A stretch of DNA of 64,000 nucleotides from Azonexus fungiphilus (GTDB lineage: Bacteria > Pseudomonadota > Gammaproteobacteria > Burkholderiales > Rhodocyclaceae), in the NCBI RefSeq assembly GCF_003634965.1, contig NZ_RBXP01000013.1:124001-188000 (forward strand), read 5' to 3'. Shown in pieces: positions 6,572 through 11,341 of this stretch; positions within the stretch are counted from its first letter, which is position 1, and the number at the start of each line of letters is the position of its first letter. The notes beneath the pieces are model-generated. The model was not told the DNA's origin, did no database searches, and saw only the letters and a list, made by a program, of their open reading frames with translations. A program made the position numbers and the translations under genes.

Positions 6572-8272
6572 TTACAGTTCTTCGGCCAGGATCATTTCGG
6601 TCAGACCCTTGCCGGCAGCGACCATCGGGAAGACGTTGGCACCCGGGTCGATGATGAAATCCATGAAGACCAGGTCGTCCTTGTGCTCGGTGAAGGCCTT
6701 GCGCAACGCCGGCTCGACGTCTTCCGGCTTCTCGATGCGCATGCCGACGTGGCCATAGGCCTCGGCCAGCTTGACGAAGTCGGGCAACGAGGTGACGTAG
6801 GATTGCGAATAACGCTTCGAGTAGAACATCTCCTGCCACTGGCGAACCATGCCGAGCATGCCGTTGTTCAGGTTGATGATCTTGACCGGCAGACCGTACT
6901 GCTTGCAGGTCGACATTTCCTGGATGCACATCTGGATCGAACCTTCGCCAGTGACGCAGGCAACCTGCGCGTCCGGATTGGCCATCAGCACCCCCATGCC
7001 GTACGGCAGGCCGACGCCCATGGTGCCCAGACCGCCGGAATTGATCCAGCGACGCGGCTTGTCGAACTTGTAGTACTGCGCGGCGAACATCTGGTGCTGA
7101 CCGACGTCGGAGGTGATGAAGGCATCGCCACCGGTCACTTCGTAGAGTTTCTCGACGACGAACTGCGGCATGATGTGATTCGACTGGCGATAGGCCAGCG
7201 ACTTGCGTCCGCGCCATTCGTCGATCTGCTTCCACCAGTCGGCGACTTCCGGATCGGTCTTGCAACCGGCGTCGAGCAGCTTGAGCATTTCGTCGAGGAC
7301 ATCCGGGACATTGCCAACGATCGGCACGTCGACCTTGACGCGCTTGGAGATCGACGACGGATCGATGTCGATATGGATGACGCGGCGCTTCTCGCTACCG
7401 AAGTGTTCAGGGTTGCCGATGACGCGGTCGTCGAAGCGGGCACCAACGGCCAGGATCACGTCGGCATAGTGCATCGCATTGTTGGCTTCGAAGGTGCCGT
7501 GCATGCCCAGCATGCCGACGAACTGGCGGTCGGTCGCGGGGTAGCCGCCCAGACCCATCAGCGTGTTGGTCACCGGAAAATCGAGCTTGCGGGCCAGTTG
7601 CGTCAGCTTGTCGGCTGCATCGGAGAGGATCACGCCACCGCCGGTGTAGATGATCGGCCGCTTGGCTTCCTGCAGCATCTGCACGGCCTTCTTGATCTGG
7701 CCGAGATGTCCCTTGACGACCGGATTGTACGAACGCATCTGGATCGTCTTCGGGTAGTCGAATTCGCACATCTGCGCCGTGATGTCCTTCGGAATATCGA
7801 CGACGACAGGACCAGGACGACCGGTTGCGGCGATGTGGAAGGCCTTCTTGATCGTGATCGCCAGATCCTTGACATCCTTGACCAGGAAATTGTGCTTCAC
7901 GCACGGCCGGGTGATGCCGACCGTATCGCACTCCTGGAAGGCATCCTGGCCGATGTAGGCAGTCGGAACCTGACCGCAGAGCACGACCATCGGAATCGAA
8001 TCCATGTAGGCGGTGGCAATACCGGTCACCGTGTTGGTGACGCCCGGACCGGAGGTCACCAGGGCGACGCCGACCCGTTGCGACGAGCGGGAATAGGCAT
8101 CGGCGGCATGGACCGCAGCCTGCTCGTGACGGACCAGGATGTGCTTGACCTCATCCTGCTTGAAAAGGGCATCGTAAATGTGCAGCACGGAACCGCCGGG
8201 GTATCCGAAAACACAGTCAACCTTTTCTTCCTGCAGGCACCTGATTACAATTTCCGCACCGCTGATCATCAT
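6572..8272 (-). CDS. ilvI: Acetolactate synthase large (catalytic) subunit
   Basis: A 566-residue ThDP enzyme forming acetolactate from two pyruvates (or acetohydroxybutyrate). Motifs: GYPGGSVLHIYD, the catalytic-Glu region VRHEQAAVHAADAYSR, the FAD-binding middle domain, and the ThDP motif GEGSIQMCIQEM ending in LNNGMLGMV. Start choice: ATG 8272 is the first of two adjacent ATGs; a TTG at 8284 is also in frame and the ribosome site does not decide between them. It is first gene of the leftward ilv operon. The predicted leader is only about 30 bases, too short for a classical leader-peptide attenuator. Confidence 0.95.
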   Translation of the reverse strand: MMISGAEIVIRCLQEEKVDCVFGYPGGSVLHIYDALFKQDEVKHILVRHEQAAVHAADAYSRSSQRVGVALVTSGPGVTNTVTGIATAYMDSIPMVVLCGQVPTAYIGQDAFQECDTVGITRPCVKHNFLVKDVKDLAITIKKAFHIAATGRPGPVVVDIPKDITAQMCEFDYPKTIQMRSYNPVVKGHLGQIKKAVQMLQEAKRPIIYTGGGVILSDAADKLTQLARKLDFPVTNTLMGLGGYPATDRQFVGMLGMHGTFEANNAMHYADVILAVGARFDDRVIGNPEHFGSEKRRVIHIDIDPSSISKRVKVDVPIVGNVPDVLDEMLKLLDAGCKTDPEVADWWKQIDEWRGRKSLAYRQSNHIMPQFVVEKLYEVTGGDAFITSDVGQHQMFAAQYYKFDKPRRWINSGGLGTMGVGLPYGMGVLMANPDAQVACVTGEGSIQMCIQEMSTCKQYGLPVKIINLNNGMLGMVRQWQEMFYSKRYSQSYVTSLPDFVKLAEAYGHVGMRIEKPEDVEPALRKAFTEHKDDLVFMDFIIDPGANVFPMVAAGKGLTEMILAEEL

Positions 8273-8312
8273 ACTCGAGCCCAAAAAGCTGTTAACCTAA
8301 AAGGGCGTAACC

Positions 8313-8339
8313 ATAATCGACAGCCCCCGGGGCGGTCAA
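8313..8339 (-). promoter_or_regulatory. Possible promoter of the ilvI operon
   Basis: The reverse strand has TTGACC (8339-8334) and GATTAT (8318-8313) with a short 15-base spacer that contains CCCCGGGG. The -35 is good and the -10 moderate. It overlaps the poorly defined upstream region of the divergent sigma factor gene. Confidence 0.35.
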
Positions 8340-8391
8340 GGTTTCTCCCTCGCCCCCACCCTCGCCCGCTTCCTCTGCCGAAAGCACCGTC

Positions 8392-8952
8392 CTGGCCGCA
8401 CCGCACCAGCTCTCCGCCTTCCTCGAAACCATCGAGCGCCGCGCATTCAAGCAGGCGATCTACGCGGTACGCGACGAAGAAGCTGCCCTCGACATCGTTC
8501 AGGATTCGATGATGAAACTGGCGGAGAAGTACGGCGACCGCCCGGCCGAAGAGTTTCCGATGCTCTTTCAGCGGATTCTGCAAAACACCATCCGCGATTT
8601 TTATCGGCGCAGCAAGGTCCGGGCGCTCTGGACCACAGCGCTCTCGGCTTTCGCTTCCGATGACGACGACCAGGACCCGCTCGAAATCCTGCAGGCAACA
8701 CAGGCACTGGGCCCGGCCTGGACGCCCGAAAGCGAACTGCTGCAAAGCCGGACGCTGGCGCTGATCGAGGGCGAACTGAAAAAACTGCCACCGCGTCAAC
8801 GCGAGGCTTTCGTCATGCGTTACTGGGAAGAAATGGACGTCGCCGAGACAGCCATCGCCATGGGGTGCTCCGAAGGAAGCGTCAAGACTCACTGCTCGCG
8901 GGCAACACATACGCTGGCTGCTGCACTGGCAGCCAAGGGGATCAGACTATGA
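8392..8952 (+). CDS. RNA polymerase sigma factor, sigma-70/ECF-like
   Basis: About 186 residues. Region 2 is seen in ALDIVQDSMMKLAEKYG and FQRILQNTIRDFYRRSKVR. Region 4 is seen in LKKLPPRQREAFVMRYWEEMDVAE followed by the helix-turn-helix CSEGSVKTHCSRA. The only ATG (8509) lies inside region 2, so the true start must be upstream, yet the open frame back to a stop near 8311 has no ATG, GTG or TTG. CTG 8392 is offered as the most plausible start. The gene overlaps the next gene by ATGA, indicating coupling with the membrane and periplasmic proteins downstream. Confidence 0.75.
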   Translation: MAAPHQLSAFLETIERRAFKQAIYAVRDEEAALDIVQDSMMKLAEKYGDRPAEEFPMLFQRILQNTIRDFYRRSKVRALWTTALSAFASDDDDQDPLEILQATQALGPAWTPESELLQSRTLALIEGELKKLPPRQREAFVMRYWEEMDVAETAIAMGCSEGSVKTHCSRATHTLAAALAAKGIRL

Positions 8953-9341
8953 CTGCAATGGACGAAGAAAGACAGGCCTACCGGCTGAAACTGGCCCTCG
9001 ACCATGGCCTGAAGGATATCGCACCGGCCTCGGCGCGCCGGCTCGAGGCCGCCCGCCACCTGGCGCTGAGCAAGCAGAAATCGCCGGAGCAGCGACTGCT
9101 GGCCCTCGGTAACCATGGTGGCACAGGCCTGACGTTCGGACATGGCGGCGGCTTGCGTCAACTGCTGGCAGTCGGCGCGCTGCTGCTCGGCATGTGGCTT
9201 TCGTTCTACTGGCACGGCGAACGCTATGTCAGCGAAGTTACCGAAACCGACCACGCGCTGCTGACCGACGAATTGCCGCCCGATGCCCTGCTCGACAAGG
9301 AACTCCTCGAATGGTTGATCGACGATTCCTCGGACGACTAG
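8949..9341 (+). CDS. DUF3619 single-span membrane protein, candidate anti-sigma partner
   Basis: A 130-residue protein: a charged cytoplasmic N-terminus (about 1-68), one hydrophobic helix (about 70-88, LLAVGALLLGMWLSFYW) and an acidic tail ending DDSSDD. This is the DUF3619 layout. The start overlaps the sigma factor stop (ATGA). A one-span protein translationally coupled to a sigma factor is the usual layout of an anti-sigma factor, but no known anti-sigma motif (such as the zinc finger HxxxCxxC) is visible. The anti-sigma role is therefore an inference. Confidence 0.7.
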   Translation: MTAMDEERQAYRLKLALDHGLKDIAPASARRLEAARHLALSKQKSPEQRLLALGNHGGTGLTFGHGGGLRQLLAVGALLLGMWLSFYWHGERYVSEVTETDHALLTDELPPDALLDKELLEWLIDDSSDD

Positions 9342-9823
9342 CGCTCGGCCTGCTGCTGGCATTCGCCCTGCCAACGGTGGCAACGCCGCCAACGACGGCT
9401 GTACTTGGCACACCGCCGCAACCGGAATGGACAGCCCTGAAACCAGGGCAAAAGAAAATCCTGGCACCGCTGGCCGATGAGTGGCCGCACATGGAACACG
9501 TCCGCCGCAAGCAGTGGCTGATGACGGCAGAACGCTACCCGTCGATGACCCGAACAGAGAAGGAGCGCGTCCAGAAGCGCATGCGCGACTGGGTACGTCT
9601 GACCCCCGAGCAACGCGCCAAAGCGCGCGAGAACTACCGGGGAATCAAACACCTGCCGGAAGCCAGGAAAGAAACGATCAAGAAAAAATGGTCGGCCTAC
9701 GAGAACCTGCCCGATCAGGACAAGCAGGGTGTTCGCGAGCGGCACAAATCGGCTATCCTTCTCGCCCCGCCACCTGCGCCGGAATCAGCGAACAGCGACG
9801 AACCCGCCTCTGCCGCCCGCTAA
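9311..9823 (+). CDS. DUF3106 periplasmic protein with LTxxQ-like motif
   Basis: A 170-residue protein with a signal peptide (GRLALGLLLAFALPTVATP) and a highly charged helical mature part. Repeated short motifs such as RLTPEQRAKARENYRG and KARKETIKKKW-like segments recall the LTxxQ motif of CpxP/Spy periplasmic stress proteins. It matches DUF3106 by layout. ATG 9311 puts its start 31 bases inside the preceding gene, so translation is probably coupled. The C-terminus is a Pro/Ala/Ser-rich tail. Confidence 0.75.
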   Translation: MVDRRFLGRLALGLLLAFALPTVATPPTTAVLGTPPQPEWTALKPGQKKILAPLADEWPHMEHVRRKQWLMTAERYPSMTRTEKERVQKRMRDWVRLTPEQRAKARENYRGIKHLPEARKETIKKKWSAYENLPDQDKQGVRERHKSAILLAPPPAPESANSDEPASAAR

Positions 9824-9838
9824 GCCGGCCCCGACCCG

Positions 9839-10303
9839 ATGATTCAAGATTCCTCCAGCCTCGGCCGCCGCCTGGGTGCGATGCTCTACGAGAGCCTCGT
9901 CGTCTTCGCCATCCTGCTGGCATTTTTCCTGTTTCCACAAACCATCCTGCAGGGTTTCGGCTTCCACCCCGCCGGCCGGTTGCAGTGGCTGCACGTGTTT
10001 CTTGTCCTTCTCGCCTATTTCGGCTGGTGCTGGCTGCACGGAGGACAGACCCTGCCGATGAAGACCTGGAAGCTGCGCGTCGTTGACAGCGCCGGCGGCC
10101 CGCTGCGACCGCTGCAGGCAGTGCTGCGCTACATGGCTGCCTGGCCGAGCCTGCTGCTGTTCGGCATCGGCATCTGGTGGGCGTTGTTCGACCGCGAAGG
10201 GCAGTTCCTGCATGACCGGATCGCCGGTACGCGCATCATCCGGGTCCTCGACTCAGCGCCGCTCGACCCACCAGATCAGCACGCCGGCCGCCAGAAGAAA
10301 TAG
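9839..10303 (+). CDS. RDD family membrane protein
   Basis: A 154-residue protein. It begins with the RDD hallmark (SLGRRLGAMLYESLVV), followed by hydrophobic helices at about 16-36, 48-65 and 100-120. It has the conserved GQTLPMKTWKLRVVD and a C-terminal DREGQFLHDRIAGTRII. RDD proteins are inner-membrane proteins of mostly unknown function; some act in transport. It is last of the rightward sigma factor set. Its 3' end overlaps the end of convergent lptG by 51 bases. Confidence 0.88.
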   Translation: MIQDSSSLGRRLGAMLYESLVVFAILLAFFLFPQTILQGFGFHPAGRLQWLHVFLVLLAYFGWCWLHGGQTLPMKTWKLRVVDSAGGPLRPLQAVLRYMAAWPSLLLFGIGIWWALFDREGQFLHDRIAGTRIIRVLDSAPLDPPDQHAGRQKK

Positions 10304-11341
10304 CGCCGATGGCGCGGCCGCGCTGGCGAAAGGCGGCCAGGCATTGATCACGCCGAGATTGGAAAACAGCCCGTTGAGCGCATAGAAGGCGATGCCGAGC
10401 ATGACACCGCCGAATATCTTGAGGCTGACGCCGCCAACCCGGTCGTGCGAGTAACCGAACGGCAAGGCAAGCGTGACCATGACCAGGGAAGCCAGCGGAT
10501 AGAAGATTTTCTTCCAGATGGCGATCTCGTAGCGCTCGGTACTCTGCCGGTTATCCGACAGGTGACGCGTATAGCCGAACAGGTCGTAGAGCGACATCCG
10601 CTCCGGCGCCACCATCAGTACCGAAAGCAGGTCGGGCGTGATCGACGACTGCCAGACATCGCTTTCCAGACGCTCGACGCTCGCCCGCTCGCCGGCCAGG
10701 GTCGTCCTGACCACCTCGCTCATCAACCAGCCCTTGCGTTCGGCAAACGCCGCCGCCTTGGCCTCGACGACTGACTGCAAGGCATTCTGGTCGTCGAAAC
10801 TGTAGATGCGGACATTCTCCAGATAGCTCTCGCTGATCGCGTTGCGAATATTGATGAAATTCCGCCCATCCTTGACCCAGATGCCGCTGAGGAAACCCTG
10901 CTGGGCAAAGGTTTTGTTCAGGGCTTCGGCTTTCAGTTCCTGCTCGTAGCGGTCGGCAACCGGCACCAGCAGTTCGCCGACCAGAAAGGTGACCAGGACC
11001 AGCGCCGCCGCCGCCCGGTAAAGGGTGGTCAGCAATTGCCCGGTCGACAATCCGGATGCACGCAAAACCGTGATTTCCGAATGCCGCGCCAGCGTCGCCA
11101 GGGCGTACAGCGTGCCGATCAGACAGGCCACCGGAATCAGTTCGTAGATCAGCCCGGGCAACGAGAAGACAACGAAGAGCGCCGCCGCCATCGCGTCGTA
11201 GCGTCCGCGACCGACACTGCGCAACTCCTCGACGAAATCGAAGAAACTGAACAGGGCGACGAAGGCAAGCAGCACCAGGGCGATCGCCATCAAGGTTTCA
11301 CGTACCAGGTAGCGCTGGTGGATATTGCCCCGGAAAATCAT
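10253..11341 (-). CDS. lptG: LPS export ABC transporter permease LptG
   Basis: A 362-residue permease of the LptB2FG complex that extracts lipopolysaccharide from the inner membrane. It shows an N-terminal basic turn (HQRYLVRETLMAIALVLLAF), three helices, a periplasmic beta-jellyroll (about 130-260) and three C-terminal helices ending in VLIWWVERR. It overlaps lptF by four bases (ATGA), the normal lptF-lptG arrangement. It overlaps the RDD gene tail-to-tail by 51 bases. Confidence 0.95.
   Translation of the reverse strand: MIFRGNIHQRYLVRETLMAIALVLLAFVALFSFFDFVEELRSVGRGRYDAMAAALFVVFSLPGLIYELIPVACLIGTLYALATLARHSEITVLRASGLSTGQLLTTLYRAAAALVLVTFLVGELLVPVADRYEQELKAEALNKTFAQQGFLSGIWVKDGRNFINIRNAISESYLENVRIYSFDDQNALQSVVEAKAAAFAERKGWLMSEVVRTTLAGERASVERLESDVWQSSITPDLLSVLMVAPERMSLYDLFGYTRHLSDNRQSTERYEIAIWKKIFYPLASLVMVTLALPFGYSHDRVGGVSLKIFGGVMLGIAFYALNGLFSNLGVINAWPPFASAAAPSALFLLAAGVLIWWVERR

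Follow-up and report, generated by a model that had tools for sequence, protein, structure and literature searches.

In signalling systems of the RpoE/RseA type, the gene for an extracytoplasmic function (ECF) sigma factor is followed by the gene for an anti-sigma factor that crosses the membrane once, and a periplasmic partner completes the system. A similar logic is found in the CnrYXH system of Cupriavidus metallidurans (plasmid pMOL28), which combines a sigma factor, a short membrane protein and a small periplasmic protein. Here, the subject is a locus of Azonexus fungiphilus that resembles both. It lies in a stretch of 64,000 nucleotides (contig NZ_RBXP01000013.1, positions 124,001 to 188,000; called "the window" below), where the gene for an ECF-type sigma factor is followed by genes for two proteins of families of unknown function, DUF3619 and DUF3106.

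The original prediction, made from the letters of this DNA without database searches, had proposed that these genes, together with a fourth for an RDD membrane protein, might form an undescribed envelope-stress module. The sigma module is real and conserved. Within the literature searched it is also unstudied, as no paper naming DUF3619 or DUF3106 was found. Its best reading is likely that of a sigma factor, an anti-sigma factor and a periplasmic partner. This offers a testable role for two uncharacterised families that accompany one family of sigma factors, and it sets a three-gene core apart from its neighbours. The more surprising finding is one that the original prediction did not contain. 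Here, the sigma gene appears to begin with a conserved CUG codon.

Three genes that travel together

The core of the locus consists of three genes:

8392..8952, plus strand: ECF-type sigma factor of the PRK09047 family (NF006550), 186 amino acids, its start placed by homology to the ATG of relatives
8949..9341, plus strand: DUF3619 (PF12279, 76.5 bits), a one-pass membrane protein and probable anti-sigma factor
9311..9823, plus strand: DUF3106 (PF11304, 105.7 bits), a basic, helical, probably exported protein and probable periplasmic partner or sensor

The sigma factor scores 266 bits with the NCBIfam model NF006550 (PRK09047), whose curated equivalog cut-off is 173. With Pfam models, its region 4 is over the cut-off (58.3 bits), and its region 2 reaches 22.3 bits against a cut-off of 24.0. 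Its 186 amino acids compare with the roughly 190 expected of an ECF protein that has regions 2 and 4 only. A plasmid search with this sigma factor gave no match. DUF3619 and DUF3106 both pass their gathering scores (22.2 and 24.3 bits). The sigma and DUF3619 genes meet in an ATGA overlap of 4 bases, and the DUF3106 gene starts inside the DUF3619 gene, with 31 bases shared. The original prediction had described a sigma-70/ECF-like factor joined in this way to a one-span DUF3619 protein, and the second overlap as well, and was right on both.

To what extent are these genes found together? The order sample consists of 150 genomes drawn evenly from the order of the window, the Burkholderiales. The sigma factor is over its cut-off in 109 of them, DUF3619 is found in 107 at E<=0.001 (106 of these over the cut-off), and DUF3106 in 109. 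Each of the 109 sigma loci was retrieved and searched with profiles built from the window's proteins; at 106, the genes for sigma, DUF3619 and DUF3106 stand in sequence, with the last two fused at two of these loci. The exceptions are a locus at a contig end (G114), one with a short DUF3619 that by eye is degenerate (G004), and one whose DUF3619 carries a very long acidic tail of low complexity (G063, locus L224); DUF3106 is absent from the last two loci. Among the 41 genomes without the sigma factor over its cut-off, DUF3619 is over its own cut-off in none and DUF3106 in two (G134:C7:66256-66561 and G043:C1:1843191-1843364).

A second, named set holds the 80 best-scoring loci and is hence biased to close relatives; two of its genomes are common to the order sample. 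The triad is present in 78 of these loci. The overlap between the sigma and DUF3619 genes is exactly 4 bases at 81 of 107 order loci, and at 152 of 185 when the named loci are added. The recurrent order and the exact overlap confirm that the arrangement is not due to chance.

Outside the order, 25 loci were collected, each with about 3.5 kb of flanking sequence on both sides. Of these, 18 come from DUF3619 matches in a class sample of 229 genomes, and seven from sigma factors over the cut-off in a phylum sample of 200 genomes, one of which (L310) lies outside the class. The class sample gave 20 DUF3619 and 65 DUF3106 matches, two genomes in each list belonging to the order itself; the reading of triads outside the order leaves out 47 other DUF3106 matches. 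At 24 of the 25 loci, a sigma gene, a DUF3619-like gene and a DUF3106 gene follow one another in that order (17 of the 18 and all seven). L303 was rejected as a DUF3619 locus, the match being a chance one inside a long unrelated frame. The match at L309 is weak (E 0.0011). At three further loci (L307, L308 and L313) the middle gene was identified by eye only, from a single hydrophobic segment and a short tail, plus the motif RLxxAR in the first two.

In the window, the surroundings of the triad are these:

9839..10303, plus strand: RDD membrane protein (PF06271, 75 bits), a frequent neighbour outside the conserved core
10253-11341, minus strand: lptG, convergent, from profile-free reading and synteny
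6572-8284, minus strand: ilvI, divergent, upstream of the sigma gene
8307..8340, minus strand: conserved block between ilvI and the sigma gene, read from upstream alignments as a putative sigma-70 promoter of ilvI
8374..8391, plus strand: ribosome-binding region of the sigma gene, with a poor Shine-Dalgarno match

Beyond lptG lie lptF and then pepA, again from profile-free reading and synteny. The 3' end of the RDD gene and the convergent lptG share 51 bases (10253-10303). Thus, the RDD gene does follow, and the locus does abut genes for lipopolysaccharide (LPS) export, as the original prediction had it. That these belong to the module is a different matter. RDD and LPS export were rejected as core parts, since the RDD gene lies downstream of only 90 of the 106 order triads, and models for RDD, ilvI, lptG, lptF and pepA find no match in the 24 outside triad loci, over the 3.5 kb or so on each side. 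When ten flanking frames from ten outside loci were scanned, seven had Pfam families, and these vary by locus: transhydrogenase PntB (three), ferrochelatase, a GGDEF protein, an ABC permease and an ABC ATPase. Because the neighbours outside the order vary, the triad is the unit; RDD and the lpt and ilv genes are neighbours in one order. Of the four families whose co-occurrence had been offered as a check, three are therefore collinear and RDD is optional.

The conserved block upstream of the sigma gene emerges from alignments of 9 and 17 upstream regions. On the minus strand it holds TTGACC (8339-8334), a spacer of 18 and TATGGT (8315-8310), and it appears to read better as a sigma-70 promoter of the divergent ilvI than as an ECF promoter on the plus strand. 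A self-regulating ECF promoter upstream of the sigma gene was set aside for this reason, and no sigma regulon is predicted. Such a promoter could, of course, overlap the block on the plus strand.

DUF3619 and DUF3106 as candidate partners

The N-terminus of DUF3619 is basic in 161 of 185 cases (mean +3.5), and its tail is acidic in 184 of 185 (mean -6.7, range -49 to 0). The structure model has helices at 3-22, 26-43, 68-105 (with the membrane stretch inside) and 117-127, with a mean pLDDT of 67.6. All 62 aligned members match PF12279 at E<=0.01. With its basic N-terminus, single membrane helix and acidic tail, DUF3619 has the layout that an anti-sigma factor would have. Further, it is co-encoded with a cognate sigma factor, as an anti-sigma factor should be, at 106 of 109, 78 of 80 and 24 of 25 loci in the three sets. 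It is probably an anti-sigma factor.

DUF3106 has a hydrophobic N-terminus that reads by eye as a signal peptide, in keeping with the export that the original prediction had assigned to it. Its core is basic in 180 of 182 cases (mean +7.0), its model is all-helical (mean pLDDT 84.5), and PF11304 is found at E<=0.01 in all 48 aligned members. A search of the PDB with DUF3106 found no relative of any kind, and its model gave no clear structural match (Foldseek best E 3.2; VIA-align 2 best Z 3.8). The DUF3619 model returned nothing usable from Foldseek (best E 8.9). The absence of structural matches for these two proteins says nothing, of course, about the novelty of their folds. The family search for DUF3106 also matches in the control genome, Escherichia coli, at E<=0.001 but below the cut-off.

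Two genomes with one genus code (G064, locus L218, and G108, locus L254; two of 184 loci with both proteins) encode DUF3619 and DUF3106 in a single unbroken frame behind the sigma gene. The order is N-terminal part, membrane stretch, acidic tail, linker, DUF3106. The fusion puts DUF3106 on the side of the membrane where the DUF3619 tail lies, and supports a direct partnership of the two. Because it joins DUF3106 to DUF3619, and not DUF3619 to the sigma factor, it leaves confidence in the anti-sigma reading unchanged. A motif of the DUF3619 tail is absent in both order genomes that have DUF3619 without DUF3106 (G063 by pattern, G004 by eye); it is also absent in 12 of 182 loci with a separate DUF3106. 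A dependence of the tail on DUF3106 is suggested by this pattern, and only suggested.

What is observed, then, is a gene order, a set of families, an overlap, conservation, opposite charges, a fusion, and (see below) many sigma genes that lack canonical starts. The account that fits these best, and which is likely to be correct, is a three-gene signalling unit of ECF sigma factor, anti-sigma factor and periplasmic partner. The PRK09047-family sigma factor would be made sparingly from a gene that starts with CUG. DUF3619 would have a separate start, AUG or GUG, served by a ribosome-binding site that lies within the final part of the sigma gene. Its short N-terminal segment would bind the sigma factor and keep it at the inner membrane, and the basic, exported DUF3106 would bind its acidic periplasmic tail. 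DUF3106 would then set whether the sigma factor is held or released, presumably upon a change in the envelope. Envelope stress is a signal that we infer, as is the sign of the action of DUF3106.

A number of observations weigh against this account. Close relatives at two loci (L072 and L073, both metagenome assemblies) keep the sigma gene, then RDD, with DUF3619 and DUF3106 gone from the locus. A search for DUF3619 across both genomes found none, and the same search does match in the window's own genome; for DUF3106, a genome-wide search found none in one, and in the other a borderline, incomplete match (24.8 bits) outside the locus. The 4-base overlap is absent at 26 of 107 order loci. The DUF3619 structure model is of low confidence, no anti-sigma model of Pfam matched the 62 members, and a PDB sequence search with DUF3619 found no relative. 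A target promoter of the sigma factor, sought in the alignments of 9 and 17 upstream regions, was not recognised. The starts of DUF3619 were called under a rule restricted to ATG, GTG and TTG (the canonical starts, as the term is used here), and the window's own sigma gene has a poor Shine-Dalgarno match, though the match is good in most relatives with CTG. As a separate observation, a short frame behind the sigma gene in L073 (5557-5772) looks by eye like a decayed DUF3619 N-terminus, which suggests recent loss.

Some of this evidence would suit a view where the three genes are a conserved unit, but where DUF3619 tethers or activates the sigma factor, or where DUF3619 and DUF3106 form an envelope complex under its control. 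A sigma factor retained without DUF3619, and a DUF3619 without a match to known anti-sigma domains, are both easier to understand if DUF3619 is not an inhibitor, and the fusion suits an envelope complex equally well. However, DUF3619 sits directly behind the sigma gene, overlaps it by 4 bases at most order loci, and crosses the membrane once, a combination typical of sigma/anti-sigma pairs. Further, DUF3619 is never over its cut-off in the order sample where the sigma factor is not. A role other than inhibition is thus rather unlikely. The sigma, anti-sigma and periplasmic layout to which the original prediction had pointed is partly supported, by gene order, topology, charges and fusion; the sigma gene that persists without DUF3619 speaks against it.

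A conserved CUG at the start of the sigma gene

The sigma frame in the window is open from 8317, with the upstream stop at 8314. No canonical start lies between that stop and residue 40 of the sigma factor. The first one in frame is the ATG at 8509, the start given in a program-made list of open reading frames, which would cost the protein 39 residues of region 2. The CTG at 8392 is the sole start-like codon at the position homologous to the initiator methionine of relatives. Gene callers limited to ATG, GTG and TTG would drop these 39 residues, and therefore the sigma factor may be mis-annotated in many genomes.

The start position could be placed at 108 of the 109 order loci (all but G006). 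It holds CTG at 72, ATG at 17, TTG at 10, GTG at 5, and another codon at 4; at three of these four, an ATG follows after one to three codons. Rhodocyclus tenuis (L099) and Zoogloea dura (L101), both Rhodocyclaceae, have CTG. In the named loci the counts are CTG 42, ATG 37 and CTC 1. At the 108 order loci, the leucine codons CTC, CTT, CTA and TTA never occupy the start position; five conserved internal leucines use synonyms freely (CTA being absent at one). In 37 of the 108 sigma genes, the stretch from the upstream stop to the conserved sequence is devoid of a canonical start. By the same test, none of 20 other sigma genes from the order lacks one, nor does any of 574 readings that cover seven neighbouring families (about 530 distinct genes, because 43 lpt genes were matched by two profiles each).

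Could translation nevertheless start at another upstream codon, or at the internal ATG? The CTG start is assigned from homology with relatives, and a canonical codon stands further upstream in frame at 35 of the 72 CTG loci, which favours such a reading. However, in two genomes (G036 and G081) a stop codon immediately precedes the CTG, at 10 of the 72 loci a stop lies no more than three codons away, and at 37 the frame contains no canonical codon between the upstream stop and the CTG. Sequence conservation begins directly after the CTG, at exactly the place where relatives carry ATG, and a start at 8509 would strip away part of region 2. An initiation codon other than the CTG is very improbable.

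A conserved CUG start is rare. According to Belinky et al. (2017; PMC5622118), switches to CUG amount to two from 61,358 ancestral AUG, one from 5,080 GUG and one from 2,468 UUG. A literature search on CUG starts and sigma factors gave no title on a CUG-initiated sigma gene among the matches listed, which is a weak absence. On a tree of the order, CTG is spread across most of the group, with at least nine changes on the best tree, three of them forced by well supported branches. Outside the order, CTG stands at the homologous position in 10 of the 24 triad loci, where the duplexes predicted to form with the anti-Shine-Dalgarno sequence have energies of -4.8 to -11.0 kcal/mol. The CUG start is thus probably older than the order. 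Two of these ten loci (L289 and L292) lack any canonical alternative; in the remaining eight, an ATG, GTG or TTG occurs at some point in the stretch from the upstream stop to the sixth codon of the match, and in L300 this is a GTG immediately preceding the CTG.

The start codon is accompanied by a difference in the Shine-Dalgarno sequence. A match of at least 4 bases is found at 51 of 72 CTG starts in the order sample (shuffled expectation 14.1) versus 1 of 17 ATG starts (Fisher 9e-7), and in the named loci at 30 of 42 versus 0 of 37. When the tree is taken into account, six independent CTG/ATG pairs remain, one of them on supported branches, and significance is beyond reach. For DUF3619, the called starts are ATG in 88 cases and GTG in 18, with a match of this length at 90 of the 106. 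The yield of CUG starts is the basis for expecting a low output of the sigma gene, and the sigma factor is probably kept scarce by its CUG. Because the DUF3619 starts are ATG or GTG (under the canonical-only rule) and mostly preceded by a Shine-Dalgarno match, a shared message would be expected to yield DUF3619 more readily than the sigma factor.

Initiation factor 3 (IF3) discriminates against starts other than AUG, GUG and UUG (PMC4611024). Its own gene, infC, has no canonical start in frame in the genome of the window, and ATC stands at the expected place. Of 30 infC loci (L259-L288, the first from this genome), 14 were dropped, as the search motif failed; nine of the 16 readable ones are without a canonical start, with ATC or ATA at the expected place in most. 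Taken with the discrimination by IF3, this makes it plausible that a circuit with IF3 control of non-canonical starts exists in this genome. A conserved start other than AUG, GUG and UUG, which would be expected of genes controlled in the manner of infC, is also found in the sigma gene (CTG at 72 of 108 loci).

These points invite a more ambitious idea, which taken as a whole is doubtful, if possible. Here, CUG would be a regulatory device, ancestral in the sigma family and older than the order; start discrimination by IF3 would limit the sigma factor, and the gene of its inhibitor would escape. In lineages that changed to AUG, the Shine-Dalgarno sequence appears to have been abandoned, and initiation would stay weak for a different reason. 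If this were true, the sigma switch would be set in part by translation: the balance of sigma and anti-sigma would depend not only on the envelope but also on the state of translation initiation.

Comparison with known systems

Like the RpoE/RseA pair, the triad places a one-pass membrane protein directly after the sigma factor and adds a periplasmic partner. Unlike RseA, DUF3619 resembles no known anti-sigma domain in profile or structure, within the searches run. As for RseB, the PDB gave no relative of any kind for DUF3106, and no search aimed at RseB was made. SbrI/SbrR of Pseudomonas aeruginosa, an ECF sigma factor with its anti-sigma factor, is linked to envelope stress, swarming and biofilm (PMC10418997); the resemblance here may be one of analogy only.

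The original prediction had compared DUF3106 to CpxP and Spy through "LTxxQ-like" helices. Like these proteins of the LTXXQ family, DUF3106 is probably exported, is helical and has the short string LTPEQ. The family model PF07813 matches one of 48 DUF3106 members, at E 0.003, and hhalign gives probabilities of 1.6 and 2.0% with Spy and CpxP. Kinship of DUF3106 with CpxP/Spy or CnrX, or of DUF3619 with CnrY, finds no support in the searches with PF07813, the PDB and hhalign.

With infC, the sigma gene shares a start outside ATG, GTG and TTG. The two differ in the codon, which is ATC for infC in this genome and CUG for the sigma factor, and the latter is not a translation factor gene but that of a sigma factor.

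CnrYXH might be more than an analogy, if the locus sensed metals through a CnrH-like sigma factor, a CnrY-like anti-sigma factor and a CnrX-like periplasmic metal sensor. The logic of a sigma factor, a small membrane protein and a helical periplasmic protein is shared, and the sigma factors are distantly alike (28% over 149 columns). The other parts are without detectable homology, with hhalign probabilities of 0.1% for DUF3106 with CnrX and 0.2% for DUF3619 with CnrY, each against single sequences. Further, the order is cnrY-cnrX-cnrH in one and sigma-DUF3619-DUF3106 in the other, and the neighbours in the window and in the commonest arrangement are ilvI, RDD, lptG, lptF and pepA, not a metal exporter. 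Metal sensing of this type is thus a slim prospect. Unlike CnrYXH, the present triad recurs throughout an order and beyond.

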